64,000 nucleotides of DNA from Nitrospirales bacterium (GTDB taxonomy: Bacteria; Nitrospirota; Nitrospiria; Nitrospirales; UBA8639): NCBI GenBank assembly GCA_029261355.1, contig JAJDBM010000049.1, forward strand, positions 1 through 64,000, given 5' to 3'. The notes below the pieces were generated by a model. It ran no database searches and had not been told where the DNA came from. It worked only from the letters and a program-made list of their open reading frames with translations. Position numbers and translations under genes: made by a program. Below, piece by piece: positions 25,929 through 44,006 of the stretch. How positions within the stretch are numbered: position 1 is the first letter of the stretch; each line of letters opens with the position of its first letter.

Positions 25929-26389
25929 CTCTGACCAAATTGACCAATCAACGTTCTAATGGTTTTCAATGTTTTCTCAAGATCGACAGTGTTAATACCA
26001 TCGGCACAATGGTTGGTCCACGGAATATGCACCTGCCGAATAGCCGCACTTTGTTGCTGCCCCTTGAGTGTCACGGAGACTAGCTTTGCCCGTTTATGAT
26101 CGGGATTGATTTTATACTCAACCAACCCATCAACTTCCAACACATCAACAAGACGCTGAATGTTTTGACGTGAGAGCCCTATCCGACGACTGATTTGTGG
26201 GACAGTGAGCAATTGGTCAAATCTTGAGAGAATTCCAAGAACTTTCCATCTGGCACTGGTTAAGCCAAATGGCTGAACCAATTTCTCTTCTTCAGCAAGA
26301 AGTCGGCTATTGAGTCTAAAAACATCCAGAATGGCATCTAGGAATAGCGTACCTTCTGGAGAGTATGTGGTAATGGGTAATTCAGACAT
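25925..26389 (-). CDS. MarR-family transcriptional regulator
   Basis: 154 residues with a winged helix: LTSARWKVLGILSRF, the recognition region TVPQISRRIGLSRQNIQRL, and the wing NPDHKRAKLVSVT. MarR proteins act as homodimers on palindromic operators and respond to small ligands. A perfect inverted repeat lies 13-27 bases before the start codon, there is no visible Shine-Dalgarno, and TATAAT-like boxes overlap the palindrome. This suggests a short or leaderless autoregulated transcript. The next genes in the same direction are a small ORF and nadA. The ligand cannot be read from the sequence. Confidence 0.88.
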   Translation of the reverse strand: MSELPITTYSPEGTLFLDAILDVFRLNSRLLAEEEKLVQPFGLTSARWKVLGILSRFDQLLTVPQISRRIGLSRQNIQRLVDVLEVDGLVEYKINPDHKRAKLVSVTLKGQQQSAAIRQVHIPWTNHCADGINTVDLEKTLKTIRTLIGQFGQR

Positions 26390-26401
26390 ATTGTCACTAT
26401 A

Positions 26402-26416
26402 ATGCTATAATAGCAT
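26402..26416. promoter_or_regulatory. Candidate MarR operator
   Basis: ATGCTA-TAA-TAGCAT is a perfect 6+6 inverted repeat just upstream of the MarR start, with a related half-site AATAGCA repeated downstream at about 26428-26434. It overlaps -10-like A/T boxes on the minus strand. Self-repression by the MarR protein is the simplest reading. Confidence 0.55.
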
Positions 26417-27372
26417 ACTACGATTAAAATAGCAATATAATGCCATATTGAGATATTTCAAGAATATTCGCCTATTCAGGCAAAGCGTAAAAAGTGGATA
26501 AGGAAAATTAGCCTTTACCTCTCAAAACAATTACGTACACAAGAAGACCACCTGCCGTAAAACAAAAAAAGACCATGCTCCACCACCTATAGGAACACGG
26601 TTTTTTTAAGAAACGATGGAAGGATCATTCACTCGTCGCGGTTCACTCAATTCTTCCAACGCAACAAAGCCATGCCTAACAATTCTACAAAAAAGCTTGG
26701 AGGACCTTTCTCAGAGGGAGAAGGCAAGAAACAAAAATCAAACAGGACAACCATTTTCAATAAGTGAGCGATTTCAAATGTAGGAGTCTGAGGGATTTTT
26801 GTAGAGGAAGAGGAAGAAGTTAGAGCCTAGCAAACATCTAAGCTTAAGGTAATGATAAAGGGACAGGTCCCCCTTCCATAGATGACCGAGAAATTCCTTT
26901 GCCACTCAACCGCTATCACCTGAATCCACGCTATGGATTCCTTAGTCCTCAAAATACGACTTCCTTCAATTATTGTCTGACTCAAGAAAATACAATTTCT
27001 TTTTGAATTCGTTGTACACAGTAGCAACCATCCGTAGAGCTTCACGCATATAATCGGCTACAACATGCGCAGTTACTGAAAAACATTTCCATCCATCAGC
27101 AAAACTCGACGCCACATGGACCAACAACCAGGCCTCCTCCCGAGGCTATGGAGTCCGGTCATGCACATTCTTTGGCCAATGGTCTAGAGCACCTGTCAAT
27201 TCGTAGCGCTCGCGTTGACAGACACATTCTCTCACCCTGCCAGCTAGCCATGGACGAAACGTTTTTCACGTAATCACATAAGAGCTCATTTGAATAAGAC
27301 CATGACGGTTAACCAACAGCCATGGGTAGGACACGTACGACCGCATGAACATGAAGGAAATTAGGAGAACGC
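26417..27372. other. Gene-free stretch between marR and the TonB receptor
   Basis: Nearly 1 kb without a supported gene. At 26860-26871 lies GGGACAGGTCCC, a small perfect inverted repeat of a sort that I associate with REP-like dispersed elements; I cannot confirm that here. No Fur box of the GATAATGATTATC type was found before the receptor gene. A 72-codon minus-strand frame at 26827-27045 looks like chance. Confidence 0.4.
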
Positions 27373-29823
27373 ATGAACATCCTCACTATTAAGTATGACG
27401 GCCTTCAGAAAAAAACTCATTCATCCAGACCGATGAAACACAAACCCTTCCAACAACAACATTGCTCAATCGCACTTATTATTGGAGCCAGCCTCCTCCT
27501 CCTCTTCACTACCACGACATTCGCCACCGAAACATCCATTGATCATTCCTCAATCCAGGTAACACCCTCAAGCAAAGAAGACTCAAGACAATCCAGTCCA
27601 ATTCCAGCCGCACCAACAGATTCGCATAAAACAAACAAGGAACATCATCAGGAATCAAACGGAGCCACGCCTGACGCATCACTTCTCGAACTCGCGAAAA
27701 CGATAGTGGCAGAAACAGCTGAGGCAGAACCTCCTCTACCTGTTAGCTCCCCAGGTCAATCCAAGGAAGCCATCCAACAACTTCCAACTGTCAAAGTAAC
27801 CGCACCAAGACTGGTACGGTCACCCACCTACCTGCCAGGTATTCCACTCGATAAACCAAGTCGCACCGGGAGCAGGCTGGGCCTCACCATCCAAAAAATT
27901 CCTGGCAGCGTAGAAGTGATCTCCTCAAAAACGATCAAAGAACGAGGATTCACCACAACCTTACTGGCAGTGGAAAGTGCGGTCGGCGTGACGACCGGAA
28001 ACTGCTTCGGTGTCGTCTGTTTTACATTCCGAGGATTTTCAGATGTGACCAGTATTCCACTACTGTTCGACGGCAACCGATACCCTGGGCTCGCAGTTCC
28101 TCCACGTTCAACCTATAACTATGAAAACATTGAAATCATCAAAGGTTCATCTTCGGTCTTACATGGCTTGGGATCCATTATAGGATCCATTAATTTCATT
28201 CCTAAAAAAGCTGATGGGGTCGAGCACAGAGAAGCTCAAGTCAGCTATGGGGCATGGGATACACGAAGCGTCGGCGCCGACCTCGGAGGGCAAGTTAGTG
28301 ATCGCGTATCCTATCGATTAGTTGGCTATCACGTCGCGGCCGACAAGGGATCATACGGGTTTGCCGACCGGACCAGCTTTGAAGATTCACACCTCTCAGG
28401 GGAACTGGCCATGGATGTGACCGCGGACCTCCGAGCCAGTGCGAGCATCGATGCCTTTCGAGACCGCGGTGAAGGCTATTTTGGTATTCCACTCATCAAT
28501 GGAAAAATCGATAAGCAAATTGTAGACAACAACTACAATATTGATGATGATCGCATTGAAAAGAACGTCATCTGGTCCCGCGTAAAACTCGATTGGAGAT
28601 TACAAGACGGCATCGGATTCCTGAATGAATCTTATATGAATTACGAGAAACGGGAATGGAAAAACTATGAAACGTATGAATTCAACGCGACCACGGGATT
28701 AGTGGATCGGGGAGATTTATTACGTATCGATCATGATCAACGCATCTATGGCAACCGTTCGGAATTAACCATCGATCGCCCGATTGCTGCATTAGATAAC
28801 AAAGTTTTAGTTGGCGTCGACTTTTCCTACAACCGACATCAACGCGATAACAACTCACCATATAGGGGAGGCGACAGCGTAGACTTCCTCAATCCAACAC
28901 CAGGGTTTTTCAACTCTCTAGACAATGAAGGGGCTCAAAGACGTACAAAGGTAAAAAACGTTGGCCTCTATATTGATGATTTTCTGCACCTGACCAAAAC
29001 GCTTAAATTGGCACTTTCCTATCGCCATGATATATCCAAAGTGAAGTCCTTTAACTTGAGAAACAATAGTGATTTCAGAAAAACATATCACGGTAATTCA
29101 TGGCGAGTTGGCACCCTCTTCGATATCCTGCCGAAAGTCACCATCTATGGACAATGGAGTGGCGCCGAAGAACCCCCGACTCAAATTACGACCTTACCAC
29201 TTAATCGAAAGAACTTTGACCTCAGAAAAAGTCAGCAATGGGAAGTCGGTGTCAAAGGATCATTTTTTAACGATCGAGTACAAACCACCGTCGCGTTTTA
29301 TGACCTCTCGCGAAAAAACCTCTTAACACGGGACACAGGAAATGCTGATACCATTCAACAAATTGGCAAACAGTCATCCCAAGGTATGGAATTCACCCTT
29401 GCCTATCTTCCCACCTGGCAATGGGAATTCAATGGAAACCTTGCGTTAACGGACTCTCAATATGATCGCTTCGTCGATAATGTTGGGGGAACTGGCGTAT
29501 CTCGAAAAGGCAATCGGCCCAATGATGTCCCGTCCAAAACTGCCAATGCATGGGTGACGTACAAACCCACGATAGACTGGCGAATTGCCGCAGGCATGCA
29601 TTATGTGGGAAAACGCTTTGGAGACAGAGCCAATACCGTCGAATTAGAAGAATATGTCACCTTTAATGCAGCCATCAGTGTGAAATACGGGCCTGGAGAA
29701 CTGTCCATCCATGGGCGGAATTTGGGTGATAAACTCTACGCCAACCGGTCCTACAACGGAGGCAAGCAAGCCCTGATCGGGGAGCCTCGAGCATGGGAGG
29801 CCTTTTATCGTATGAACTTTTAG
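27373..29823 (+). CDS. TonB-dependent siderophore-type outer-membrane receptor
   Basis: 816 residues. An AGGAGA four bases upstream fixes the start, so the signal peptide (hydrophobic core LIIGASLLLLFTTTTFATE) has a long leader of about 33 residues; a start at Met21 would look more usual but lacks a ribosome binding site. A Ser/Pro-rich linker (about 55-140) precedes the TonB-box-like LPTVKVTAPR. The plug domain follows (IPGSVEVISSKTIKERG, VVCFTFRGFSDV, YENIEIIKGSSSVLHG), then a 22-strand type barrel ending in YRMNF. It imports ferric siderophores or a similar ligand with energy from TonB-ExbBD, none of which are encoded here. Cysteines in the plug (TGNCFGVVCF) could form a disulfide. Confidence 0.93.
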   Translation: MNILTIKYDGLQKKTHSSRPMKHKPFQQQHCSIALIIGASLLLLFTTTTFATETSIDHSSIQVTPSSKEDSRQSSPIPAAPTDSHKTNKEHHQESNGATPDASLLELAKTIVAETAEAEPPLPVSSPGQSKEAIQQLPTVKVTAPRLVRSPTYLPGIPLDKPSRTGSRLGLTIQKIPGSVEVISSKTIKERGFTTTLLAVESAVGVTTGNCFGVVCFTFRGFSDVTSIPLLFDGNRYPGLAVPPRSTYNYENIEIIKGSSSVLHGLGSIIGSINFIPKKADGVEHREAQVSYGAWDTRSVGADLGGQVSDRVSYRLVGYHVAADKGSYGFADRTSFEDSHLSGELAMDVTADLRASASIDAFRDRGEGYFGIPLINGKIDKQIVDNNYNIDDDRIEKNVIWSRVKLDWRLQDGIGFLNESYMNYEKREWKNYETYEFNATTGLVDRGDLLRIDHDQRIYGNRSELTIDRPIAALDNKVLVGVDFSYNRHQRDNNSPYRGGDSVDFLNPTPGFFNSLDNEGAQRRTKVKNVGLYIDDFLHLTKTLKLALSYRHDISKVKSFNLRNNSDFRKTYHGNSWRVGTLFDILPKVTIYGQWSGAEEPPTQITTLPLNRKNFDLRKSQQWEVGVKGSFFNDRVQTTVAFYDLSRKNLLTRDTGNADTIQQIGKQSSQGMEFTLAYLPTWQWEFNGNLALTDSQYDRFVDNVGGTGVSRKGNRPNDVPSKTANAWVTYKPTIDWRIAAGMHYVGKRFGDRANTVELEEYVTFNAAISVKYGPGELSIHGRNLGDKLYANRSYNGGKQALIGEPRAWEAFYRMNF

Positions 29824-29850
29824 GAGAGCCTTAAAGAAAAAGCCTTGAAT

Positions 29851-29884
29851 CTCAGTGAATGTCGCTTTAACGACATTCACTGAG
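29851..29884. terminator. Perfect 14-bp hairpin after the TonB receptor
   Basis: CTCAGTGAATGTCG and its exact complement CGACATTCACTGAG flank the loop CTTTAA, 28 nt after the receptor stop. There is no T-run, so it would act as a 3'-end stabiliser or a factor-dependent terminator rather than a classical intrinsic one. Confidence 0.5.
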
Positions 29885-30106
29885 TCAGAGGAAAATCGAC
29901 TCCCTCATCCTTGCACTCAACTCCGTATGCCCTAGCCACTTTCCAGTGAAATAATTCGCAGCATACGCAAAACATCACTCTAAAAGCACAGACATCGCCC
30001 CAATAACTGGTGACCGGGTCAGCTACTCATTAAAGTGAGATTGAGTTGGGTCTGATGAGGCCTTCAGGATAGGGAGCGGACGTCACCGCCGGTTCGAAAC
30101 ATGATT

Positions 30107-30670
30107 TTATACTGCATATTCATGTTCCCGACAAATCATGTGAATCTCTTGTTTACTCAAGGGTTCATTGGTCAACCCGCAGAGAAAGCCTTCCGAGAGT
30201 TTTTGGTTAAAACGACATGTATGACAGGCCGCAAAGGTTTTGCGATTGTTATGTCGCTGCATCGCATGCAATGTCGAACGGAGGCCCTCTTCAAGTCCAC
30301 TCCCTTTTAAAGAATGACTCATCTTCAACGCCGCCTCTAATCCCTTCGCTGGAATGGATTGCTCTATAAGCTTTCTCCCCTTGGCAGTTGGTGCGAGATG
30401 AACAATCCGTTTGTCCTTCTTATCCTGACGCTTGCGTAATAAGCCTTTCTGATCCAACAGCTTCAGCGATTGAGAGACCGTTCCCTTCGTCAACCCCAAA
30501 TACTCGGTGACGGCTTGTGGTGTATCTGAGTAGCGGTTGCATTGAGTCAGATAGGTTAGGGCTTCAATCTGTACTGGTTGTAGCCCAAACTTTAAACCAA
30601 ACTGCCTCATCTCCATACGAAGGAGATTACACAAACGCTCTAATATGTCCTGTACGTCTTGCGCTCTCAT
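30107..30670 (-). CDS. MarR-family regulator with C-terminal four-cysteine cluster
   Basis: 187 residues. The winged helix covers about 25-100 (VQIEALTYLTQC, VTEYLGLTKGTVSQSLKLL, wing KKDKRIVHLAPT). The C-terminal tail has C149 and C152 (ACHTCRF), C164 (FLCGLTNEP) and C180 with H183 (ICREHE). This spacing suggests a bound Fe-S cluster or zinc, so the protein may sense redox state, nitric oxide or metal; that is an inference. It is transcribed away from a thioredoxin-like protein and a truncated haemoglobin, whose shared promoter region carries repeated half-sites fit for a MarR dimer. Both targets make sense for nitrosative or oxidative stress. Confidence 0.88.
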   Translation of the reverse strand: MRAQDVQDILERLCNLLRMEMRQFGLKFGLQPVQIEALTYLTQCNRYSDTPQAVTEYLGLTKGTVSQSLKLLDQKGLLRKRQDKKDKRIVHLAPTAKGRKLIEQSIPAKGLEAALKMSHSLKGSGLEEGLRSTLHAMQRHNNRKTFAACHTCRFNQKLSEGFLCGLTNEPLSKQEIHMICREHEYAV

Positions 30671-30698
30671 GCCCTAATTGTATCGTCTCGAGCATGAT

Positions 30699-30745
30699 TT
30701 GACAAATGGAAAATGCCGTGCGATACTTTGGTATCGAATCGATAC
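30699..30745 (+). promoter_or_regulatory. Promoter and multi-half-site operator in the marR/trx divergent region
   Basis: TTGACA (30699-30704), a 17-bp spacer and GATACT (30722-30727) form a good sigma-70 promoter facing right. Three half-sites overlap the -10 and just follow it: CGATAC (30721-30726), GTATCGA (30731-30737) and TCGATAC (30739-30745). They form two overlapping inverted repeats, CGATAC-TTTG-GTATCG and GTATCGA-A-TCGATAC. A repressor bound here would block transcription of the thioredoxin-like gene. Confidence 0.7.
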
Positions 30746-30780
30746 TAAATACAAAACACTCAATTACAAAGGAGAGTCCA

Positions 30781-31023
30781 ATGAAAAAAGCCATTTTTTA
30801 TCACGCAGGATGCCCCGTTTGTGTCGAAGCCGAGAATATGGTGGCTCAAGCCATTGATCGCAACCAATACGAACTTGAGGTGATCCATTTTGCCCAACAT
30901 CCCAATCGAGTCGCCGAGGCTGAAACGGCTGGCGTGAAATCTGTGCCGGCATTGGTACTAGAAAATCAGGTCTTTCATATCAACTTCGGAGCGTCCATGG
31001 CTGATGTCAAAGGGACTGCCTGA
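30781..31023 (+). CDS. Thioredoxin/glutaredoxin-like small protein with CPVC
   Basis: The ATG at 30781 has AGGAGA five bases upstream; an upstream in-frame ATG at 30706 lies inside the promoter and is rejected. The 80-residue product opens MKKAIFYHAGCPVC, a strand followed by a CxxC redox motif, and contains a cis-Pro-like VKSVPAL, both thioredoxin-fold marks. It lacks a signal peptide, so it should work in the cytoplasm as a small thiol reductant. Its operator-bearing promoter and the divergent MarR gene indicate inducible expression, likely together with the haemoglobin gene 121 nt downstream. Confidence 0.8.
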   Translation: MKKAIFYHAGCPVCVEAENMVAQAIDRNQYELEVIHFAQHPNRVAEAETAGVKSVPALVLENQVFHINFGASMADVKGTA

Positions 31024-31034
31024 ATAGAAATAGG

Positions 31035-31107
31035 CCCTAGGTGATCGTTGCAAGTTGCCTCACCTAAAATATCCATTCCTAGGGTCCTGGGTCATCGACC
31101 CAGGACC
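31035..31107 (+). other. Highly structured spacer between trx-like and haemoglobin genes
   Basis: The 121-nt gap holds three nested or adjacent inverted repeats: TAGGTGA/TCACCTA (31038-31044 with 31060-31066), CCCTAGG/CCTAGGG (31035-31041 with 31078-31084), and the perfect 11-bp GGTCCTGGGTC-ATC-GACCCAGGACC (31083-31107). The first two are mutually exclusive. The last is followed by TTTT at 31114-31117. It may be a partial terminator or a switch-like leader for the haemoglobin gene. Confidence 0.5.
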
Positions 31108-31144
31108 TGCTCAGTTTTCACACTCTAAAAAAGGAGAAGTCAGT

Positions 31145-31603
31145 ATGCGTATTTCCGCCAATTACCTCGCAATAGGATTAGCCGCCGGTCTGTTGATGAC
31201 GGCGACAGCCTGTTCGACTCTTGAATCAACCATGGGTAAAGCCACCCCTTCCTTATATGATCGGTTAGGACAAAAACCTGCCATTACAGCAGTTGTTGAT
31301 GAATTTGTTGGGAATGTTGCCAAGGACAATCGCATCAATGGTCGATTTGCGACAACCGATATACCTCGATTAAAAGGACACCTTGTGGACCAGGTCTGCA
31401 TGGCCACGGGAGGCCCATGTACCTACAAGGGTAGAGACATGGTAACCATGCATAAGGGAATGGGGATCACGAATGCCGACTTCAACGCGTTGGTTGAAGA
31501 TTTGGTGGCTGCACTCGATACCTTTAAGGTACCGCAAGCAGAGCAAAAGGAGTTACTTGGCCTCCTTGGACCGATGAAACCTGATATCGTTGAGCTCCCC
31601 TAA
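31145..31603 (+). CDS. Lipoprotein truncated haemoglobin, group 1 type
   Basis: The ATG at 31145 has AAGGAG eight bases upstream; reading from 31055 adds non-signal residues. The 152-residue product has an n-region MRISAN, a hydrophobic core and a lipobox-like MTATAC with C23. Then comes a truncated haemoglobin: [37 protein letters not shown] and the proximal His in TMHKGMGIT (H103). Such proteins bind haem and handle O2 or NO. Attachment to a membrane by a lipid is less usual for this family and suggests a role at the envelope. The regulated thioredoxin-like gene upstream and the Cys-rich MarR make an NO or redox response likely. Confidence 0.85.
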
Positions 31604-31633
31604 CTGCTAATCCGACCACTCAACATACGACAA

Positions 31634-31676
31634 GGCTCCTTGTGGAATGGACTCCATTCTTGCAGGGAGCCATTTT
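31634..31676 (+). terminator. Intrinsic terminator after the haemoglobin gene
   Basis: GGCTCC...GGAGCC (31634-31639 with 31666-31671) encloses a second stem GAATGG/CCATTC and is followed by ATTTT. It should end the trx-haemoglobin transcript. Confidence 0.6.
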
Positions 31677-31768
31677 CGATTATTGAAAATATATGATAGA
31701 AACGTAGTAACGAATATCGATGCACGATCGAAGATAATTCTTCGAAACTCTTTCTTGACTTGAAAGGA

Positions 31769-32647
31769 ATGACAAAGGTGACGCACCCAACTCACAATGA
31801 GATAGGAACTCTCGCATCAATGTGGCGATACCCGGTAAAATCGATGATGGGCGAAGAGTTATCTATGGCAGAGGTCAAAGAACACGGAATTGGTGGAGAC
31901 CGATCCTATGCTATTCTCGATCGCTCAGATGGAAAAGTTGCCACAGCTAAAAACCCCAGAAAATGGCCAACCCTGTTCACCTTTCAAGCAAAACTTTCTA
32001 CGGTCACGAATGAGACAGAGAATATTTCGCCAGTCACCATCACATTACCTGATGGCACAATGGTAAATAGTGAGCAAGATGATCTGGACCAGAAGCTCTC
32101 ACAGGCACTCGAAAAAGACGTCACGTTAGTGGCCACCGAGCAGGGAAAGATGAAAGGCGTACAATCGACCCTCCCCTCATCCTGGACACCGAATTCTGAA
32201 GAATATTGGCCAGACATCGACGGGCGTGATCATCGCGAGACAGTCACTGACTTCACATTACCCACAGGAACATTTTTTGATGCCGCGATGCTTCACTTAT
32301 TGACCACTGCAACCCTTGAACAACTACATGAAGCCTATCCCGATGGGAAATTTGTCGCTCAACGGTTTCGACCTAACATCATCGTGCACACACCTGAAGG
32401 CGAAAAAGGGTTTATTGAAAATTCCTGGATCGGGAAAATCCTCTCCATCGGAAACGAGGTTCGCCTAAAAATTACTGGACCCTGTGCTCGCTGCGTCATG
32501 ACAACCTTGCCACAGGGAGCACTTCCCAAGGATCCTGGAATCCTACGAACCGCACTCAAGCACAATCAGGGTAACGTTGGAGTCTATGCGTCAGTACTCC
32601 TAGGTGGAACCATTCGTTCTGGTGATCCGATAAAATTAGAAGACTAA
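31769..32647 (+). CDS. MOSC domain protein, YcbX/mARC-like
   Basis: About 292 residues. The N-terminal MOSC beta-barrel opens with LASMWRYPVKSMMGEEL and GIGGDRSYAILDR. The MOSC domain has RFRPNIIVH and the conserved cysteine region GPCARCVMTTLPQG, where mARC-type enzymes bind molybdenum cofactor through Cys. These proteins reduce N-hydroxylated compounds or detoxify base analogues with electrons from a ferredoxin or flavodoxin partner. No fused 2Fe-2S domain is present. The start is uncertain: ATG at 31769 has no spacing to AAAGGA, while GTG at 31778 has good spacing. Confidence 0.85.
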   Translation: MTKVTHPTHNEIGTLASMWRYPVKSMMGEELSMAEVKEHGIGGDRSYAILDRSDGKVATAKNPRKWPTLFTFQAKLSTVTNETENISPVTITLPDGTMVNSEQDDLDQKLSQALEKDVTLVATEQGKMKGVQSTLPSSWTPNSEEYWPDIDGRDHRETVTDFTLPTGTFFDAAMLHLLTTATLEQLHEAYPDGKFVAQRFRPNIIVHTPEGEKGFIENSWIGKILSIGNEVRLKITGPCARCVMTTLPQGALPKDPGILRTALKHNQGNVGVYASVLLGGTIRSGDPIKLED

Positions 32648-33058
32648 ATGGTGGCATTGACTCCATCTTTGCGGTGTAAAGTCTTCTCTTAATTCCATCA
32701 AATGATCTATTTGCATCAAGAGAGCTTCATCTGCAAGGACACAAATTCATTCCAAACTGTTGCGAGCAAGGCCTAAGACCATCTACATGCTTAGAGATAA
32801 AAATCAGTAAGCACAATTCGCCCTTAGATGAATGACTAGAGTGAATATCCAAAGAGACTGTCAGAACTCTCTAAAAGTATTGACTGCCCCGTTGGAATAA
32901 ATTAAGGAGGTTTCAGGTTCTGTATTTCCTCACAAGTAAAGCGAACATGAGACTACAATACAACTGAAAAGTTGATTATCATGGTCAAGACTGTCAGAAA
33001 TGGAATCACGGTTGACAGACTATTTCCAAATGCTCTCTTGCTCCTGTACTCGATTCTC
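32648..33058. other. Intergenic stretch holding repeat copy A
   Basis: About 410 bp between the converging MOSC and VTC genes. The main content is copy A of a ~200-bp repeat (32758-32956). No gene is supported; a 64-codon plus-strand frame at 32972-33166 runs into the VTC gene and looks like chance. Confidence 0.5.
32758..32956 (+). repeat. Direct repeat, copy A, left of the VTC operon
   Basis: This copy matches 38523-38728 in the same orientation. Shared blocks in order are TGTTGCG, AAGAC-ATCTA, GTAA-CACA-TTCGC, ATGACT (18 bases before CAAAGAG in both copies), TCAGAACTCTCTA, AAGTA-TGAC and AAGGAGG/GAGGAGG, ending in CATGAGAC-AC. The copies differ at many sites, so they are old. I do not recognise the element; an IS or MITE remnant is likely. 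Confidence 0.7.
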
Positions 33059-33922
33059 CTATTGAATAAACTCCTCCTCACCATAGCTCCATGTTGGGCG
33101 GCTTTCAGCCAGATAGCCAATGTCATTATCATAATGAGCCACCAAACTGCTCGTCACATACTTTGAAAAACTCTCTTGCTTCAGTTCAAAGAAGGTAATC
33201 AGATCCAGCATCCACGTAGGGACCTGCCCGACGTAGCACTTTAACTCGAGTATCACACTTCCCTGACTCCAAGTGTATTTAGCATAGACTGTTTCGTTGT
33301 CGTAGTTAATCAACGTGCCATCAGGCCGAAGATTGTATGGGTCTCCAGCGCTGTGAAAGAGGTCCTGAGGACGGTATTTCATGTCACAATCCATCGTCAC
33401 CCGCGCATACTCGTCCACCGTTGAAAAAAAGGCACGTCGAACATATTGAGTGTAGATTTTGGGCTCGATCGCGTAGGTTGTCGCAAAGCGCATGAACAGG
33501 TCCTTGTTATTGCGATTACTTCCTGCCTCACTCTCTCCTACCCTGAATTGGGCATCTGTAAGAATCGACGGCCATTCCTCCCCCTGGACAGTGGCCCGGT
33601 ACTTTTTAACGAACGTGCCTGTTTTGTGTTTAATTTCCATAAAGTATGGTGGAGTATCTCCCTCTCCATAGGTGCGGACACGCATATTAAATCGAGAGTC
33701 GCGCCCCCAAAGCCGCTGCTTGAGAAATTCATAATTTCTGGTATCAAAATATAAACTGTTGACGCGATAGAAATAGCTTTCGTCTTTGGCTTGAATTGAG
33801 AAGTAATCAAGCTGACAATATGGAGCAAGAAACTGCGTGATCGGTTCCACGTACGACAGGGGAATCAGGTACTTGAGTTCGTACCGTTCCAACACAGGGG
33901 GCAGTATGATTTTTTCCGACAT
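33059..33922 (-). CDS. VTC-domain polyphosphate polymerase
   Basis: 287 residues, all VTC domain (triphosphate-tunnel/CYTH-like fold). The residues that form the tunnel in yeast Vtc4 have clear counterparts: ERYELKY (K17), SLYFDTRNY, MRVRTYG (R81, R83), EIKHK (K98, K100), QYVRRAF (R162 or R163), RVTMDCD (R174), ILELK (E226, K228) and SFSKYVTS (S251, K254). Vtc4 makes polyphosphate from ATP and threads it through a membrane domain. No membrane helix is present here, so the DUF4956 protein of the same operon would supply one. It starts 2 nt after the TolC-like gene and is last in the operon. Polyphosphate as product is strongly suggested, not proven; bacterial members are little studied. Confidence 0.88.
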   Translation of the reverse strand: MSEKIILPPVLERYELKYLIPLSYVEPITQFLAPYCQLDYFSIQAKDESYFYRVNSLYFDTRNYEFLKQRLWGRDSRFNMRVRTYGEGDTPPYFMEIKHKTGTFVKKYRATVQGEEWPSILTDAQFRVGESEAGSNRNNKDLFMRFATTYAIEPKIYTQYVRRAFFSTVDEYARVTMDCDMKYRPQDLFHSAGDPYNLRPDGTLINYDNETVYAKYTWSQGSVILELKCYVGQVPTWMLDLITFFELKQESFSKYVTSSLVAHYDNDIGYLAESRPTWSYGEEEFIQ

Positions 33923-33924
33923 AG

Positions 33925-35169
33925 TTATTCCCGTAGTTCAGGTTGCCCCTCTTTTATCCAGTTACGCAGAGGGGCTTGGCCCAGTATTCCTGAAGCCGCG
34001 AGGACGTCAATATAATCACGAAGAAGTTGTGTATGAGTCCTGGCCATTGTCCTGTTCAGCGCGATTTGTTGCCATTTGAGCCCTATCACAAATTTGGGGT
34101 TTCGGATTCTGGCCGATTCCGATTGGAGGATCTGAATTTTCTGAACAGCCAAATTATCTGTTTTCCAAATAGACACGTTCCACGTCATGGTATCCAGTTT
34201 CCCGACCATGAGGTTTCCCACGGTATCCCGTGTGAGCATAAACATGGTCTTCGCATTGCCTTGGTCCTGTCGTTGATCAATCAGGTTGGCATCTCCATCA
34301 CCCGTGGGAATTCTGAATCCCAGTAATACCCCAATAGCGTTGTCGCTTCTGTCGTTTGCATATTCTAGATCAATGAGGTCGAGCGCTAAGCCGGTCTTCG
34401 CCTCAGCCATCGCGAGTCTGGCATTCTCCAGATCAAGATCCAAGCGTGTTTGCTTGATCTGCGGATAGTTATCCGTATCTGCCAACGCTGCTCGATATTG
34501 GGTCAATACGTCATCAATGTTTAGGGGAGAGAGTGGCCAATTTCCATCTAACAAGGTGTGGGATGAATCTGGTAATTCACTGTCTGCCAGAATTCCTTTC
34601 CGCATGGCCTCCAAACGTTTTTCCGCCATCTGTAAGGTGTCGGTGACATGCGAGTGATCAAGAATAAGGCGTTGTAATTTTTCAGGATCAAAGTCAGTCG
34701 TTTCGGCCAATGCACGATTGAGGTTGATCTCAGCTTTCAGGAGATTGGCCTCTCGCTTCCTCAGCTCTACCATTATTCGTTTCTCAGCAAAATCAATGAG
34801 TACGTGATACCGCATCTTCAGCAACCTGGTCACCAGACGGTTGGCATGTATCATGCGCTGCTTTGCACCCAACTCTGACAAGAATTGTTCCGCAGAACGT
34901 TGGGTCCCATATTTTGGCGTCACCCGCAGCGAGTAACGGTTCTTCATACTGTTCTTGAAACGATGTTTAAGATTTTCTTCTGCCTGAAATCGTAACTGAG
35001 CTCCATCGATCCATCCACTCACTCCGGTGTGTACGCTTCTCGTTGATTCATGCACGATCGAACGTTGGGGATTCGGGACAGCCTTCAGCAAAAAGGCATC
35101 AAGGGTATCTGCCATGCTCAGATTCGGGAGTGCTAGCAAAAGCAAGAGACACGTCCTAGTTTGAAACAT
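33925..35169 (-). CDS. TolC-like outer-membrane efflux protein (divergent)
   Basis: 414 residues with a signal peptide (ending near LSMADT). Most of the rest is long amphipathic helices (about 95-215 and 235-400), split by a strand-rich segment (AIGVLLGFRIPTGDGD). LENARLAMAEAKTGLALDLIDLEYAN resembles the second helical repeat of outer-membrane efflux proteins, and the GFRIPTGDG block resembles the OEP barrel region. It is shorter than TolC and has diverged, so its channel may be specialised. Its ATG overlaps the HlyD-fusion stop by one base (TGATG), indicating translational coupling. With the adaptor it should form the outer part of a trans-envelope conduit. Confidence 0.75.
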   Translation of the reverse strand: MFQTRTCLLLLLALPNLSMADTLDAFLLKAVPNPQRSIVHESTRSVHTGVSGWIDGAQLRFQAEENLKHRFKNSMKNRYSLRVTPKYGTQRSAEQFLSELGAKQRMIHANRLVTRLLKMRYHVLIDFAEKRIMVELRKREANLLKAEINLNRALAETTDFDPEKLQRLILDHSHVTDTLQMAEKRLEAMRKGILADSELPDSSHTLLDGNWPLSPLNIDDVLTQYRAALADTDNYPQIKQTRLDLDLENARLAMAEAKTGLALDLIDLEYANDRSDNAIGVLLGFRIPTGDGDANLIDQRQDQGNAKTMFMLTRDTVGNLMVGKLDTMTWNVSIWKTDNLAVQKIQILQSESARIRNPKFVIGLKWQQIALNRTMARTHTQLLRDYIDVLAASGILGQAPLRNWIKEGQPELRE

Positions 35170-37199
35170 CAGATGCGCCCACCAGAGATAAAGTGATCTA
35201 GATTTACCATGAGATAACGAGAAGCAGTGGTACCTCCACCATCAGCCACCAACAAATATTCTTGGTCGTATTGAGTCCGGGCTATCCCTTCAGCCTTCAA
35301 GCCAGAAATAGTGAAAATTTCACGCAAGACGTGTGTCGCCTGGTCGTACGCCCACACATAACTCACGTGGCTCTGTTTTTTCCCTCGACTCCCCAAGAGA
35401 AGCAGAGTGCTATCAATCCAGAGCATGTCCGACAGTAAAACGGGTTCTCCAGCTTGAGAATCCACCAACATGATGGTCTCCCAGATTTCACCTTGTGGCG
35501 GGCGACCCGCGAAGATTCTCTCGAGATTCATTATCCTGAGGAAAACCGTCTGACCGAGATCAGTCCGTGGCGACTTGAAACCCAAAATGAGATTGTCATT
35601 TCTGACAACATGTGCTTCGATATCGATACGTTTTGACTGCAGGGCGTCCTTAAGAAATATCGCTGTATGTCTATCGTTAGTCGTTGCTTCCAGTTGTTCT
35701 AAGACATGGTAGAGATCAATGAATCCTCGAGAGATCAGGTGGGAACCATCCTGCTCAAGCCTGAGAAACTGTCGGCGCTTGGCCTTCAACTTGCCCTTTT
35801 TATTATGAGAGAGAGAGGACAGTAGATAGAGGTACGGTCCATCGGCACTCAGGCTTTCCAAATCGTCAATTTGTGGTGCATCCTTCACCACGATGGAGTT
35901 TGTGATTCTTCCCTGCACATCCATACGATAGAGAGCCGTTTTGCCTGAGCTGGATTCATCACTGATCATGAAAAAATTTAAATTCTCTGGGTCCCATAAG
36001 ACACCAGAGGCTTCAATGCTTTTTGGATCAATGCGGTTATCGGTGGGAATAATGAACGATTCTTTAGGGAAGGAAGGAGAAAGTGGAAGTCTCTTGACCG
36101 ACGTCTCAGCAAAAACATTCATGACATCACTAAACATGCTGGCCGTAGCAACAACCTTCGAAAACACCGTGCCAGGTTTTTCCAGAAGGACGATTACCTT
36201 TTCGCCTAACAACAATGGGTGTGACTCGGAAAGTCTGACCACCGCTTCTCGTCCCCAAGCCTGAACCATAGGGTTTTTCTTAAGTCGTTCGGGATACTCG
36301 ACAATGCGCGTACCGAGGCTCTCCACGGTACTCTCAATAAAGGGAGCTTCATCACCTGATGTTGTCGATTGCACCCAAACGGATTGGCCTACTTGCACTC
36401 GATTCACGACAGCTTCGTGTATATAGCCGTTGATATAGTTAGGGGATGATCCGTGAACAGTGAGAATTGGCTGAAATGGAGGAACAATTTCTCCAGACCG
36501 GAACATCATACTGCCGACGCGACCATCAAAATCGGCCCGAATCGTGAGCTTAGTGGCCTGATGTTGTAATGCTGATTTTCGTTCTCGGAGTTCAGCAACC
36601 TGGGCATCAATAGGACGCAGATTTGCGTTTAATTGAGCTTCCAGATTCATTATTTCCGCTTCTAATGATGCTCTCAGGTGTTGGCGTTCTCGTGTGAGGC
36701 CTTCAATTTCGGCCAAAATGGGGTTGCTACGAAGGTCGCCGTCTGGAGCATGCCCATCCAATTGAACCAGAATACTTTGGTTAAGATCATGGCGAGATTG
36801 GAGACTCTGGATTTTAGAATCAAGATTTGCCTGTTGAGCCTCTTGCTGACTCCGCAGACTAGACAGTTTTGCTCGCGTCGCCGCAACCGTTTCACGGTCG
36901 CGAGTGGTTAATTCAGTGAGCTGCTCATCAAGGATCACCAGCTCTGAACTCAGTGCGTCTCGCTGCACTTCCATAATTAATTGCCCCTGACTGACAGGAT
37001 CACCTTCAACAACTAATATCCGCACGATGTCGACCGGGGCCTCGAACAAAATGGTTTGCTCCCGATCATCAGCAATGCCATAGAAATGTGCCGACTCACC
37101 CCGGAATCCTAAGGCCAACACTCCAAGCACCGCCAATGAGATTCCCCACATGACGAACAAGAACCGTTTGTGCATATTTAGAGTGATCCTTCCGGACAT
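35169..37199 (-). CDS. HlyD-type membrane-fusion adaptor fused to a DUF3616-like beta-propeller
   Basis: About 676 residues. A single N-terminal membrane helix (FLFVMWGISLAVLGVLALGF) is followed by a lipoyl-like half (ILFEAPVDIVRILVVEGDPV), a long coiled-coil hairpin (about 70-210, Leu/Gln/Glu-rich), the second lipoyl half (LTIRADFDGRVGSMMFRSGE) and a beta-barrel: a full HlyD adaptor. From about residue 385 a different domain begins. EASGVLWDPENLNFFMISDE, DDLESLSADGPYLYLLSS and GKLKAKRRQFLRLE look like DUF3616, related to SdiA-regulated/phytase-like propellers. I have not seen this fusion described. Start choice: ATG at 37199 with GGAA upstream; TTG at 37223 or ATG at 37175 are possible. It lies between the DUF4956 and TolC-like genes. 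Confidence 0.8.
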   Translation of the reverse strand: MSGRITLNMHKRFLFVMWGISLAVLGVLALGFRGESAHFYGIADDREQTILFEAPVDIVRILVVEGDPVSQGQLIMEVQRDALSSELVILDEQLTELTTRDRETVAATRAKLSSLRSQQEAQQANLDSKIQSLQSRHDLNQSILVQLDGHAPDGDLRSNPILAEIEGLTRERQHLRASLEAEIMNLEAQLNANLRPIDAQVAELRERKSALQHQATKLTIRADFDGRVGSMMFRSGEIVPPFQPILTVHGSSPNYINGYIHEAVVNRVQVGQSVWVQSTTSGDEAPFIESTVESLGTRIVEYPERLKKNPMVQAWGREAVVRLSESHPLLLGEKVIVLLEKPGTVFSKVVATASMFSDVMNVFAETSVKRLPLSPSFPKESFIIPTDNRIDPKSIEASGVLWDPENLNFFMISDESSSGKTALYRMDVQGRITNSIVVKDAPQIDDLESLSADGPYLYLLSSLSHNKKGKLKAKRRQFLRLEQDGSHLISRGFIDLYHVLEQLEATTNDRHTAIFLKDALQSKRIDIEAHVVRNDNLILGFKSPRTDLGQTVFLRIMNLERIFAGRPPQGEIWETIMLVDSQAGEPVLLSDMLWIDSTLLLLGSRGKKQSHVSYVWAYDQATHVLREIFTISGLKAEGIARTQYDQEYLLVADGGGTTASRYLMVNLDHFISGGRI

Positions 37200-37230
37200 C
37201 TTAATTCCAAGAAAATATGCCAACAGCGCT

Positions 37231-37923
37231 TCATAAATCCACCGTGGCCTCTTGTAGCATCAAGTTCGTCCCCTGAATACTTTGTAATGTTTGCAGCTCT
37301 TTTAGGAAATCATCATGTGCCATGCCAGTTCGCATTTTGATGTGATACGCATAGTCCAGCCGTTGACCTTGTGAAATTTCACGCAAGGTCACCAATGAAA
37401 ACGCTCGACAATGTCGATGAAGAATGGATTCGAGTTGAGGGCTCTCCGTCGTGTCACAGGACATATTAAAACGTAGCATCCCATCAAAATGGCTGGTGGG
37501 GCCCAAGGGGGAGTAAAAGAGGATGAGCGCTGTAGCGGTAAACCCAAGTGTGCCAATAATGGCAACACCAAATGAATACGCCCCACAGGCTACTCCCGCT
37601 GATACACCGGCAAATAAAAACAAGAGATCACGTGGATCTTTGAGATTCGTACGAAAGCGAATGATGGCCATGGCCGCCATAATGCCGATGCCCCGGGATA
37701 AGCTATCACCCACTGCCTGAATGACCGTTGCTGCAACGATCGAAATAAGAATGATGGCTTGGACGTAATTGCGAGAATATGACAACCCGCGAAAGGTCTT
37801 TTGGTACACAAAAGCGATAAAGGTAGAGAGCACAAAACACAGAAGGTAGATATACACCAATGTGAGTAAGCCACCGCTTTCTGCTGCAGTCTGTACGTTA
37901 AACGCTTCCAAGGCATTCTGCAT
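37231..37923 (-). CDS. DUF4956 membrane protein
   Basis: 230 residues with about four membrane helices (about 20-42, 55-72, 82-96 and 105-150). The conserved signature RGIGIMAAMAIIRFRTNLKDPRDLLFLFAG follows the second or third helix and marks DUF4956. The layout, with a Gly-rich helix and a small C-terminal ACT-like domain (LRFNM...LVTLREI...YHIKM), recalls MgtC/YhiD proteins. DUF4956 genes are known neighbours of VTC genes. In yeast the VTC polymerase passes polyphosphate through membrane helices, so this protein is the natural candidate for the inner-membrane channel here. It is first in the operon; AGAGGA seven bases upstream supports the start. Confidence 0.85.
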   Translation of the reverse strand: MQNALEAFNVQTAAESGGLLTLVYIYLLCFVLSTFIAFVYQKTFRGLSYSRNYVQAIILISIVAATVIQAVGDSLSRGIGIMAAMAIIRFRTNLKDPRDLLFLFAGVSAGVACGAYSFGVAIIGTLGFTATALILFYSPLGPTSHFDGMLRFNMSCDTTESPQLESILHRHCRAFSLVTLREISQGQRLDYAYHIKMRTGMAHDDFLKELQTLQSIQGTNLMLQEATVDL

Positions 37924-38998
37924 CAGGTGTCCTCTATCCTTGGCTCTATTCGTTTCATGCCATCGCCCCTTTCGGTGTCGTTATACTTTCAGTAGAAATA
38001 ACCTCAGTGAAATACGTCATATTCTTCAAACTAAATTGAATACAACCGAAGTATGCATTCTTGACAACTGGTGAAGATACGGTCGCATAATTCGTTCGCA
38101 TCAATTTGTCTTCAAACTTTTCTCATGCAATGCGTTAACACCTTCTAGAATCCGCCACTCACTCATGAAAAAACTTACTCAAAACGTCTGTCCTACTATT
38201 CGCAGAATCTACTTTTACCTCGTTCATGTCAATTTCATTATCAAATAATAATAGTTGCATGAACATGATTTTCCGACCCCTTATCATGAACAAAATAAAA
38301 ACTTATAAGAAAAGAGACTTGACCTAAATCGGCAACAAAAATCTCACAAGCCCTTTTGTGAGAAACGGTGAAAGTTCTCTGATTTCTTACTCTCTCAAAA
38401 CGCTCCGTGTGATCTGAATAGAAGAAAAATAGTGATTCGATCATGTCCCCCTCTATCCAGTGATTCATTGGTACCCCATATTATAAAATGACTTCTATGG
38501 TCTCGTTTTTCCACACGCAATATGTTGCGGCGAAGACAAAGACAATCTAGATCCCAAGAAGTAAAAGCCCGTAAACACATTTCGCTCGTGATGGATGACT
38601 CAAGAAAATAAACAAAGAGGCCCTCAGAACTCTCTAGAAGTACTGACGGCCCCTTTGAAATAGATTGAGGAGGTCTCATGTTCTGAATACTCTGCCAATC
38701 TTCCAAGTAATGCTCGGCATGAGACCACTATTCTATGACGATGGGATCACAAGCATGGCCTCCTTAAGAGCTCCCCAATCCTAAGACTCTCACTTTCTAT
38801 TCGTCCTATCGCTTCCATTAGAAATAGCAATTCGCGAAACGGTACTGTTGTGACCTGGAAAGACTGATACAAACATGGTCATGCTCCTTGATAAAATTGT
38901 TGATCATCACGTGTAGCTCACGTCTTGATCAAACATACAGAGGCAAGTTCACAAGAAGCTAACCAAGGCATTACCGTTAGGTAAGAAATAAACAGAAC
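37924..38998. other. Gene-free stretch with repeat B, upstream of the VTC operon
   Basis: About 1.07 kb between a minus-strand kinase and the minus-strand DUF4956 operon. It must hold the operon promoter at its left end. A hairpin CTCACAA-GCCCTT-TTGTGAG sits at 38343-38362. Repeat copy B occupies 38523-38728. A 103-codon minus-strand frame at 38395-38706 spans the repeat, has no counterpart intact in copy A, and is not called as a gene. Confidence 0.5.
38523..38728 (+). repeat. Direct repeat, copy B, right of the VTC operon
   Basis: Same orientation and block order as copy A (32758-32956). This copy keeps a perfect inner inverted repeat GGTCTCATG (38672-38680) and CATGAGACC (38718-38726), which is degraded in copy A (TTTCAGG / CATGAGAC). 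The hairpin could be the end of a mobile element or a small structured RNA. Together the copies bracket exactly the four-gene operon and its flanks. Confidence 0.7.
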
Positions 38999-40408
38999 TT
39001 AGTGAGGAGTAGACGAAAATGGAGGGAGGAAAATGGTGAAGGTACTTCCTTGAGCAGGTTCACTCGCAAGTGTAATATCGCCTCCATGGGCACAGGCCAC
39101 TGCACGAGCAAAGCTTAATCCTAAGCCACATCCATCCTGAGATCGACTTTGATCACACCGAAAAAATCGATCAAACACACGAGGTTGATCGGCTGGCTGA
39201 ATGCCAAAGCCTGTATCAGCAACCATCACACACAGGCCACGTGGTTGTCGGGTAAGATCAATCTTCACCTGCCCCTTTGGCCCTGTATATTTCAAAGCAT
39301 TATCAAGAAGATTGGCCAACATCCGTTGAAGCATTTGACGGTTACCCTTCACTCGACAGTCAGGATCAAGCTTGCAAGAAAGTTTGATCTTTTTTTCTTC
39401 AGCGGCTGGCTCATATAGATCACGAGCATCTTCAATAAGCATCGACAGGTTAATCGGTTCTGTATCCGTCGACATCACTCCAGCCTCTGCTTCTGCGACA
39501 TCTAGGGTCGTATTGATCAAATGGAGAAGTCGATCACACTGCTCAAGCGTATCAGAGGCCGCGACTCTGTACTCGTTGTCGGGCTCTGTGACCGAGAGAG
39601 CTCTTTCAGAAATAACACGAATCCGTGACAAAGGACTCCGCAGATCATGTGCAATATTATCCGTCATTTCCCGCATTTCAGTAATCAAAATCCTAATACG
39701 TTCAGCCATCGCATTAAAGGTATCGACTAGCATTTGAACTTCATCGCCTTGATCTTTGATCGTAACTCGACGATCGAGTTGCCCCTTTTCAATATCAACA
39801 GCCGCACGACTTACCTCCTCAATCCCCTTGACCGCCTTTCTTGCGATTGCCCATCCAACCCCTGACGCAAGTGGTATCGCAACACAAAACATTCCAATAA
39901 ACACCAGAAGAAGCAAATTCATGATCTCGTCTTTTTCTTCGAGCGACTCGCCGAGATGCATGATCAGACCTGGGGCAATCAAGCCGGACGTGATTCTCGC
40001 CGACGAATCATGATGAGGACGCACGACTGTTTGAATTCGATACTCGCCTTGAACCTCTGGCACCTTTTGTAAAAATTCCTCAGATATAGGCAGCTCCTTC
40101 CACTCAGTGAGGTTTGAGGAGAAAATCGTCTGCCCTTTACTCGTCAACAGTCGAAGGAACATCTGCTCTTCATCATTGGATTCGGCCTCACGCTCAAGTT
40201 CTTGAACCACTCGATTCATGCCTTCAGCAAGGTACAGATCACTATATTCAGAAATATCTTCCGTTAAATCTTCATTCATGCGATTATTGAGAATCGTATC
40301 CACAGAAACGTACAAGAGACAGAAGGCGGCAAAAGAGGAAACAAGAAATGCGACGGCATATGACAGAGTGAGACGAAACGCTAAGGTATTTGGCAACCTA
40401 CGCATCAC
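38999..40408 (-). CDS. Sensor histidine kinase (HAMP, EnvZ/CusS-like)
   Basis: 469 residues. TM1 (about 12-36) and TM2 (about 163-188) enclose a periplasmic sensor of about 125 residues with many acidic positions. HAMP follows (about 189-240), then HisKA with NIAHDLRSPLSRIR (H254). HATPase has NLLDNALKYTG, VADTGFGIQ and GCGLGLSFARAVA. The protein autophosphorylates on H254 and passes the phosphate to the OmpR-type regulator encoded just upstream, with which it overlaps by 11 bases. The pair is transcribed away from an LbtU-like porin, which may be its target. The signal is unknown; acidic sensor domains can bind metal cations. Confidence 0.93.
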   Translation of the reverse strand: MMRRLPNTLAFRLTLSYAVAFLVSSFAAFCLLYVSVDTILNNRMNEDLTEDISEYSDLYLAEGMNRVVQELEREAESNDEEQMFLRLLTSKGQTIFSSNLTEWKELPISEEFLQKVPEVQGEYRIQTVVRPHHDSSARITSGLIAPGLIMHLGESLEEKDEIMNLLLLVFIGMFCVAIPLASGVGWAIARKAVKGIEEVSRAAVDIEKGQLDRRVTIKDQGDEVQMLVDTFNAMAERIRILITEMREMTDNIAHDLRSPLSRIRVISERALSVTEPDNEYRVAASDTLEQCDRLLHLINTTLDVAEAEAGVMSTDTEPINLSMLIEDARDLYEPAAEEKKIKLSCKLDPDCRVKGNRQMLQRMLANLLDNALKYTGPKGQVKIDLTRQPRGLCVMVADTGFGIQPADQPRVFDRFFRCDQSRSQDGCGLGLSFARAVACAHGGDITLASEPAQGSTFTIFLPPFSSTPH

Positions 40409-43361: not shown

Positions 43362-43896
43362 ACCCTCCTTACAAAATATGGTCAGCCTCACTCAAGTGAA
43401 AAAGTTTTTGAACAAACAACTCAAGGCTGTTGTAGGCTTCCACATAAAAGGAGTCAACGAAGTGATCAAATGGTAATGTCGTGAAACATTTTCCCTGACC
43501 AAAAGCAGCATTTTCACAACATCCAAAATCCCCTTCTGTCATCAAAAATCAATAGTCCCGCACTGAATAGAAACCCTTTACAGGCAACTATGCAGAAGAA
43601 CTCATGTTATGAAGCGTTTCGCGACTGCGACAACTCGCGATGGGGGAACAAATCAGTAGGTACTCCTTAGGAGATGACACCAATAAGTACCCATTAAATC
43701 ACTGTAAATTCAGATAGATTTCTGTCCTCTCGAATTATTCCCGTCTCACTGACGCCTTCCAATCAACCCCTAGAAAAATTCTTATAGTTATCTATGTACT
43801 AGAAACTCAGCAAGCCCCAGAGACCCTCGCCAGCCATTCCTACGAACATATGCCTCATTGACAAGCCGCAAGCTGAGCGCTAGCATTGATTACATA
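43362..43896. other. Divergent spacer before the thiamine operon
   Basis: No gene is supported. The left part carries the PEP-CTERM gene promoter; the right part leads to the TPP riboswitch and must carry the thiC promoter. Confidence 0.4.
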
Positions 43897-43982
43897 AGGC
43901 TAGGGGAGCATATTGCTGAGATGTCCAACTCCGTTGGACGACCCTTATACCTGACCTGGGTAATTCCAGCGTAGGGAAGCGG
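43897..43982 (+). promoter_or_regulatory. TPP riboswitch (THI element)
   Basis: The thi-box landmarks are in order: CTAGGGGAGC, GCTGAGA, ACCCTTATACCTGA, CTGGGTAATTCCAGC and GTAGGGAAGC. These match the conserved aptamer of thiamine pyrophosphate riboswitches, with a variable hairpin TCCAACTCCGTTGGA as P3a. It lies before thiC and is followed by a strong terminator. When TPP is bound, the thiamine operon should be switched off. Confidence 0.95.
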
Positions 43983-44006
43983 CAGAGAATGAAGATCAAA
44001 ATTTTC

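Follow-up and report, generated by a model that had tools for sequence, protein, structure and literature searches.

A VTC, DUF4956, HlyD and TolC-like operon of Nitrospirales as a candidate phosphate-linked route for polyphosphate export

We know of no explanation for how bacteria place polyphosphate outside the cytoplasm. A four-gene operon in a Nitrospirales genome of 4.63 Mb raises the question of whether a VTC polymerase might be provided with its own path across the cell envelope. The operon lies in a window of 64,000 nucleotides (the whole stretch of contig JAJDBM010000049.1 that was analysed) and runs as a single unit from DUF4956 through an HlyD adaptor and an OEP/TolC-like protein to a VTC-domain protein (Table 1). 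A sequence-only reading had proposed a trans-envelope polyphosphate system at this place, and its coordinates, strand and gene order were all confirmed on the sequence. The junctions that it gave, of 31 nt, a 1-nt overlap (TGATG) and 2 nt, are right if the adaptor starts at ATG 37199; the mechanical open reading frame begins at TTG 37223, and the later ATG is preferred from a homologue in the metagenome-assembled genome OFTM76. On one flank lie genes for IleRS, NadA, MarR, a TonB receptor, thioredoxin, globin and MOSC, and on the other a two-component system, a porin-like protein, a PEP-CTERM protein and thiamine genes, with an ordinary TPP riboswitch (43892-43994, plus strand) ahead of thiC. 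As had been claimed, no ABC, RND or MFS pump was found among the flanking genes examined in the window.

Table 1. Positions of the operon genes and adjoining features in the window
Feature	Position	Strand	Basis
DUF4956 inner-membrane protein, 230 aa	37231..37923	-	PF16316 E 1.7e-10
HlyD-type periplasmic adaptor with C-terminal DUF3616/phytase-like (propeller-like) domain	35169..37199	-	HlyD_3 E 9.6e-9; start from OFTM76 homologue
OEP/TolC-like secreted protein, distant, 414 aa	33925..35169	-	hhalign against 14 OEP proteins
VTC-domain (triphosphate-tunnel) protein, 287 aa, soluble	33059..33922	-	PF09359 E 2.7e-40
pstS remnant, first 23 codons, start codon lost, rest missing	32977..33045	-	82% identity to OFTM76 pstS start
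Direct repeat copy 1, beside operon	32758..32925	.	76% identical over 168 nt to copy 2
Direct repeat copy 2, beside operon	38523..38688	.	76% identical over 168 nt to copy 1

The four genes also occur together elsewhere. OFTM76, which belongs to the same family within Nitrospirales and to another genus, carries all four with the three junctions unchanged, and no pump accompanies them there, the only transporter being the Pst importer. Two of the outcomes that the sequence-only reading had named as refuting it, restriction to a single genome and a pump in related operons, were checked in this way and neither occurred. Identity between the two copies was 93% for DUF4956, 92% for VTC, 68% for the adaptor and 55% for the OEP-like protein, with omega values of 0.036, 0.072, 0.193 and 0.196, respectively, at a dS of 0.6-1.65. 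The low omega in all four indicates that every gene is kept by purifying selection. The fast-diverging parts are the OEP-like protein and the C-terminal domain of the adaptor, which had an omega of 0.24, as against 0.129 for the adaptor portion alone. A scan of the genome collection, with patterns built from a single protein, matched OFTM76 only, as such patterns are too specific.

The VTC-domain protein scored 138.9 bits against its Pfam family (cut-off 23), and its profile aligned with yeast Vtc4 structures at E 7e-16. The catalytic residues expected of the domain are present, R81, R83 and E226 matching R264, R266 and E426 of Vtc4 and being invariant in an alignment of six bacterial sequences. 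In yeast the same three Vtc4 residues were replaced together in a catalytically impaired complex (PMC9911596). From this likeness, polyphosphate made from ATP would be the product of the bacterial protein. Hydropathy revealed no membrane segment in the window's VTC protein, which would therefore need a membrane partner. The adjacent DUF4956 protein, at 41.3 bits (cut-off 30.6), has about four hydrophobic segments by hydropathy, and R89 and R91 are invariant in the alignment. The DUF4956 profile also reaches MgtC-like proteins, of which DUF4956 is a distant relative. Matches to this profile in 21 further Nitrospirota genomes were, among those inspected, not DUF4956 operons; four candidates (L071, L075, L077 and L086) look MgtC-type instead, and another (L089) looks like a sulfate-transporter-type protein. 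In yeast VTC the membrane channel is lined with basic residues, and synthesis was proposed to be coupled to translocation of the polymer out of the cytoplasm (PMC9911596). By analogy with that membrane part, DUF4956 could serve as a polyphosphate channel.

The adaptor scored 36.4 bits against HlyD_3 (cut-off 22.2) and has one N-terminal membrane anchor at residues 21-39 by hydropathy. AlphaFold predicted a coiled-coil hairpin with a pLDDT of 70-83, the remaining model being unreliable (42 overall). Its C-terminal domain had been assigned to DUF3616, an assignment that did not hold at the curated threshold of PF12275, since the domain reached 15.1 bits in the window and 19.2 in OFTM76 (cut-off 20.6), and its similarity to Phytase-like PF13449 is about equal; it is probably a diverged propeller of the DUF3616/phytase-like kind. 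The VTC, DUF4956 and HlyD assignments stood above their curated Pfam cut-offs, and the TolC-like one is weak and comes only from profile comparison. The third protein has a hydrophobic segment at its N terminus and no match in Pfam, NCBIfam or PDB, with none against PF02321 even at E 10. When compared by hhalign with 14 OEP proteins, its residues 212-295 aligned with the second OEP repeat at a score of 28.1, a weak match (pairwise P 0.0087) that nonetheless scored higher than every one of 100 column shuffles, of which the best reached 22.0, and than a reversed decoy at 15.6. The first repeat seems, by inspection, to be without part of the barrel strands, and the AlphaFold model reached a pLDDT of 38. 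For both proteins the low confidence is attributed to alignments of two sequences, which are too shallow. The profile comparison hints at a distant kinship with the OEP/TolC family; an outer-membrane pore is putative.

Taken together, the four proteins suggest a route. The VTC protein would make polyphosphate from ATP in the cytoplasm, and the growing polymer would move out through the MgtC-like inner-membrane protein DUF4956, driven by polymerisation itself as in yeast VTC, which would make an ABC, RND or MFS pump unnecessary. Passage through the periplasm would then fall to the OEP-like protein and to the HlyD adaptor, including the adaptor's periplasmic propeller-like domain, and at the OEP-like protein the polymer probably would cross the outer membrane. 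We infer the identity of the product, the channel role of DUF4956, a conduit built of the four parts and the passage across the outer membrane alike. That this is a phosphate-linked operon whose VTC-made polyphosphate is exported via the other three proteins, probably past the outer membrane, is the reading that we tentatively favour, at a little short of an even chance; the fuller version, a pump-free, polymerisation-driven exporter to the cell surface that forms part of a phosphate-uptake operon, is possible and rather doubtful. It might instead be proposed that polyphosphate reaches the periplasm only, where the adaptor-propeller protein would hold or process it and the OEP-like protein would be a periplasmic helper and form no pore. 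Such an arrangement would fit a protein that falls under every family threshold and seems short of barrel strands in its first repeat, as well as an adaptor bearing an extra periplasmic domain. HlyD adaptors, however, usually dock to OEP channels, and a plasmid of Hymenobacter volaticus pairs a clear OEP protein (E 5e-41) with DUF4956, so that we regard a purely periplasmic destination as unlikely, though deserving some weight.

It was previously established that bacterial VTC genes adjoin DUF4956 (PMC7112168). The claim that the two are known neighbours was borne out here, the genes being together in all five VTC genomes that were found, in one of which (G060) the partner is only a DUF4956-like neighbour unrecognised by Pfam. 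VTC is rare in these bacteria, with 3 of 270 genomes in the class and 3 of 396 sampled across the phylum; five distinct sampled Nitrospirota genomes carry it, this one included, and two have the four-gene form. The others keep more usual company, with VTC-DUF4956-CotH in G307 and DUF4956-CotH-like-VTC in G467; the G307 set (L015 7171-12926) immediately follows genes that look ExbB/ExbD/TonB-like on inspection of the sequence. Elsewhere, VTC-DUF4956 pairs are found in exopolysaccharide clusters with CotH. The HlyD adaptor and OEP-like protein take the place of CotH in the window, and no CotH kinase was found in the window's genome. Phyla outside Nitrospirota were sampled through plasmid records only; scanned viral contigs gave no matches. 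On the Hymenobacter plasmid three consecutive genes encode an HlyD-like protein (NCBIfam E 6e-6), DUF4956 (E 5e-15) and the OEP protein; no pump gene interrupts them, and the 40 kb read contains no VTC. Its adaptor, which is without the propeller-like domain, showed no similarity to the window's in pairwise comparison. DUF4956 with an adaptor and a channel therefore recurs in another phylum with a different adaptor, and the DUF4956 tree speaks weakly on whether the HlyD/TolC association arose once. On pSymA of Sinorhizobium meliloti (L009 4266-6636) a DUF4956 gene lies directly behind a caspase-like gene, with no VTC nearby.

Since VTC-DUF4956 occurs with CotH elsewhere, VTC does not always belong to an adaptor-channel set, and another substrate is possible. 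The adaptor, OEP-like protein and DUF4956 might accordingly export some other molecule, with VTC in a regulatory or phosphate-sensing role, or working on another nucleotide or acceptor. DUF4956 genes with no VTC close by in Hymenobacter and Sinorhizobium, and the exopolysaccharide clusters, lend themselves to this explanation. The intact catalytic residues and the linkage to pst genes speak against it, and we consider it unlikely.

That linkage is seen directly in OFTM76, where, 22 nt after VTC and behind a good ribosome-binding site, the genes pstS-phoU-pstC-pstA-pstB-pstB follow in the same direction (the names pstC, pstA and pstB come from inspection of the sequences). Pst is the high-affinity phosphate importer used under phosphate shortage. 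The phoU gene of this operon (L006 8525-9625) encodes a fusion of PhoU with a phosphatase-like domain of the low-molecular-weight type. In the window a 69-nt remnant of pstS was found directly behind VTC, with 82% identity over 67 nt to the OFTM76 pstS start, and it scored 74, whereas none of 500 shuffles scored above 26. The common ancestor of the two copies thus already had pstS together with the four genes, and the pst part was lost in the window's lineage; judged by the sequence, the connection with phosphate genes is ancestral. Ahead of the OFTM76 operon (L006 2458-2523) lie TTCTCAT-like repeats with an 11-nt period that looked like a PhoB box, but the consensus score was reached by 103 of 300 shuffles, which is chance level, and a PhoB box was rejected. 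The window's genome also encodes PPK1, with a PhoU gene about 3 kb away, and polyphosphate synthesis by itself would therefore not require the operon. An operon shared with a high-affinity importer in OFTM76 could also suit the opposite direction of flow, in which outside polyphosphate is taken up through the conduit and VTC, when phosphate is short, degrades the polymer or works backwards. To our knowledge all HlyD-OEP sets are exporters, and in yeast VTC the synthesis of the polymer is linked to its movement out of the cytoplasm, which together render uptake improbable.

The operon is absent from the genus mates G001, G003 and G004, which keep the two-component system, porin-like and PEP-CTERM genes. 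In G003 the distance between NadA and the kinase is 4 kb, compared with 13 kb in the window, where a variable segment of about 12.6 kb (26389-38999), comprising the TonB receptor, MarR, thioredoxin, globin, MOSC and the operon, replaces 3.5 kb of G003. The synonymous divergence of the operon genes from the other genus is lower than that of neighbouring genes within the genus (1.6-2.3), suggesting horizontal gain, and the direct repeat around the operon may be a mark of the segment's entry or of rearrangement. A rare set in a segment missing from genus mates and bounded by a repeat could, in principle, consist of neighbours without a joint function, kept side by side by chance or transferred in one piece. 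The identical tight junctions and the purifying selection on all four genes, retained despite different surroundings, make this very improbable.

Compared with known systems, the operon shares with the eukaryotic VTC complex (Vtc1/3/4) the triphosphate-tunnel polymerase domain and conserved catalytic residues, and would share the coupling of synthesis to membrane passage proposed for yeast (PMC9911596). It differs in that its VTC protein is without an SPX domain and membrane helices, in that DUF4956, as far as tested, has no sequence relationship to the Vtc1-type membrane part, and in the added adaptor and OEP-like partners. Like tripartite exporters, in which an ABC, RND or MFS pump acts with HlyD and TolC, it has a hairpin-bearing adaptor and an OEP-like partner; unlike them it has no pump gene, and DUF4956 with VTC would be the inner-membrane partner. 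The association of VTC with DUF4956 is already known and the HlyD adaptor and OEP-like protein are what is added here; searches of an open-access library turned up no previous account of the four-part set, as the sequence-only reading had supposed.

The polyphosphate export that it proposed is plausible. It gained a second genome, the pst linkage with its remnant and the conserved Vtc4 residues, and is further supported by low omega, by a VTC protein free of membrane segments, by the company of VTC and DUF4956 in all five VTC genomes found, by the Hymenobacter HlyD-DUF4956-OEP row and by the absence of a pump. Export is weakened by the rarity of the set (two genomes), the weak OEP kinship, a channel role of DUF4956 that is only putative, the Hymenobacter set without VTC, the presence of PPK1 and the fast divergence of the OEP-like protein and the adaptor's C-terminal domain. 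If true, a VTC polymerase equipped with an envelope conduit of its own would be a defined four-gene route for polyphosphate out of the cytoplasm, would be to bacteria what VTC is to yeast, and would give DUF4956 a role. The ancestral pst link predicts that polymer outside the cytoplasm would be phosphate-dependent.
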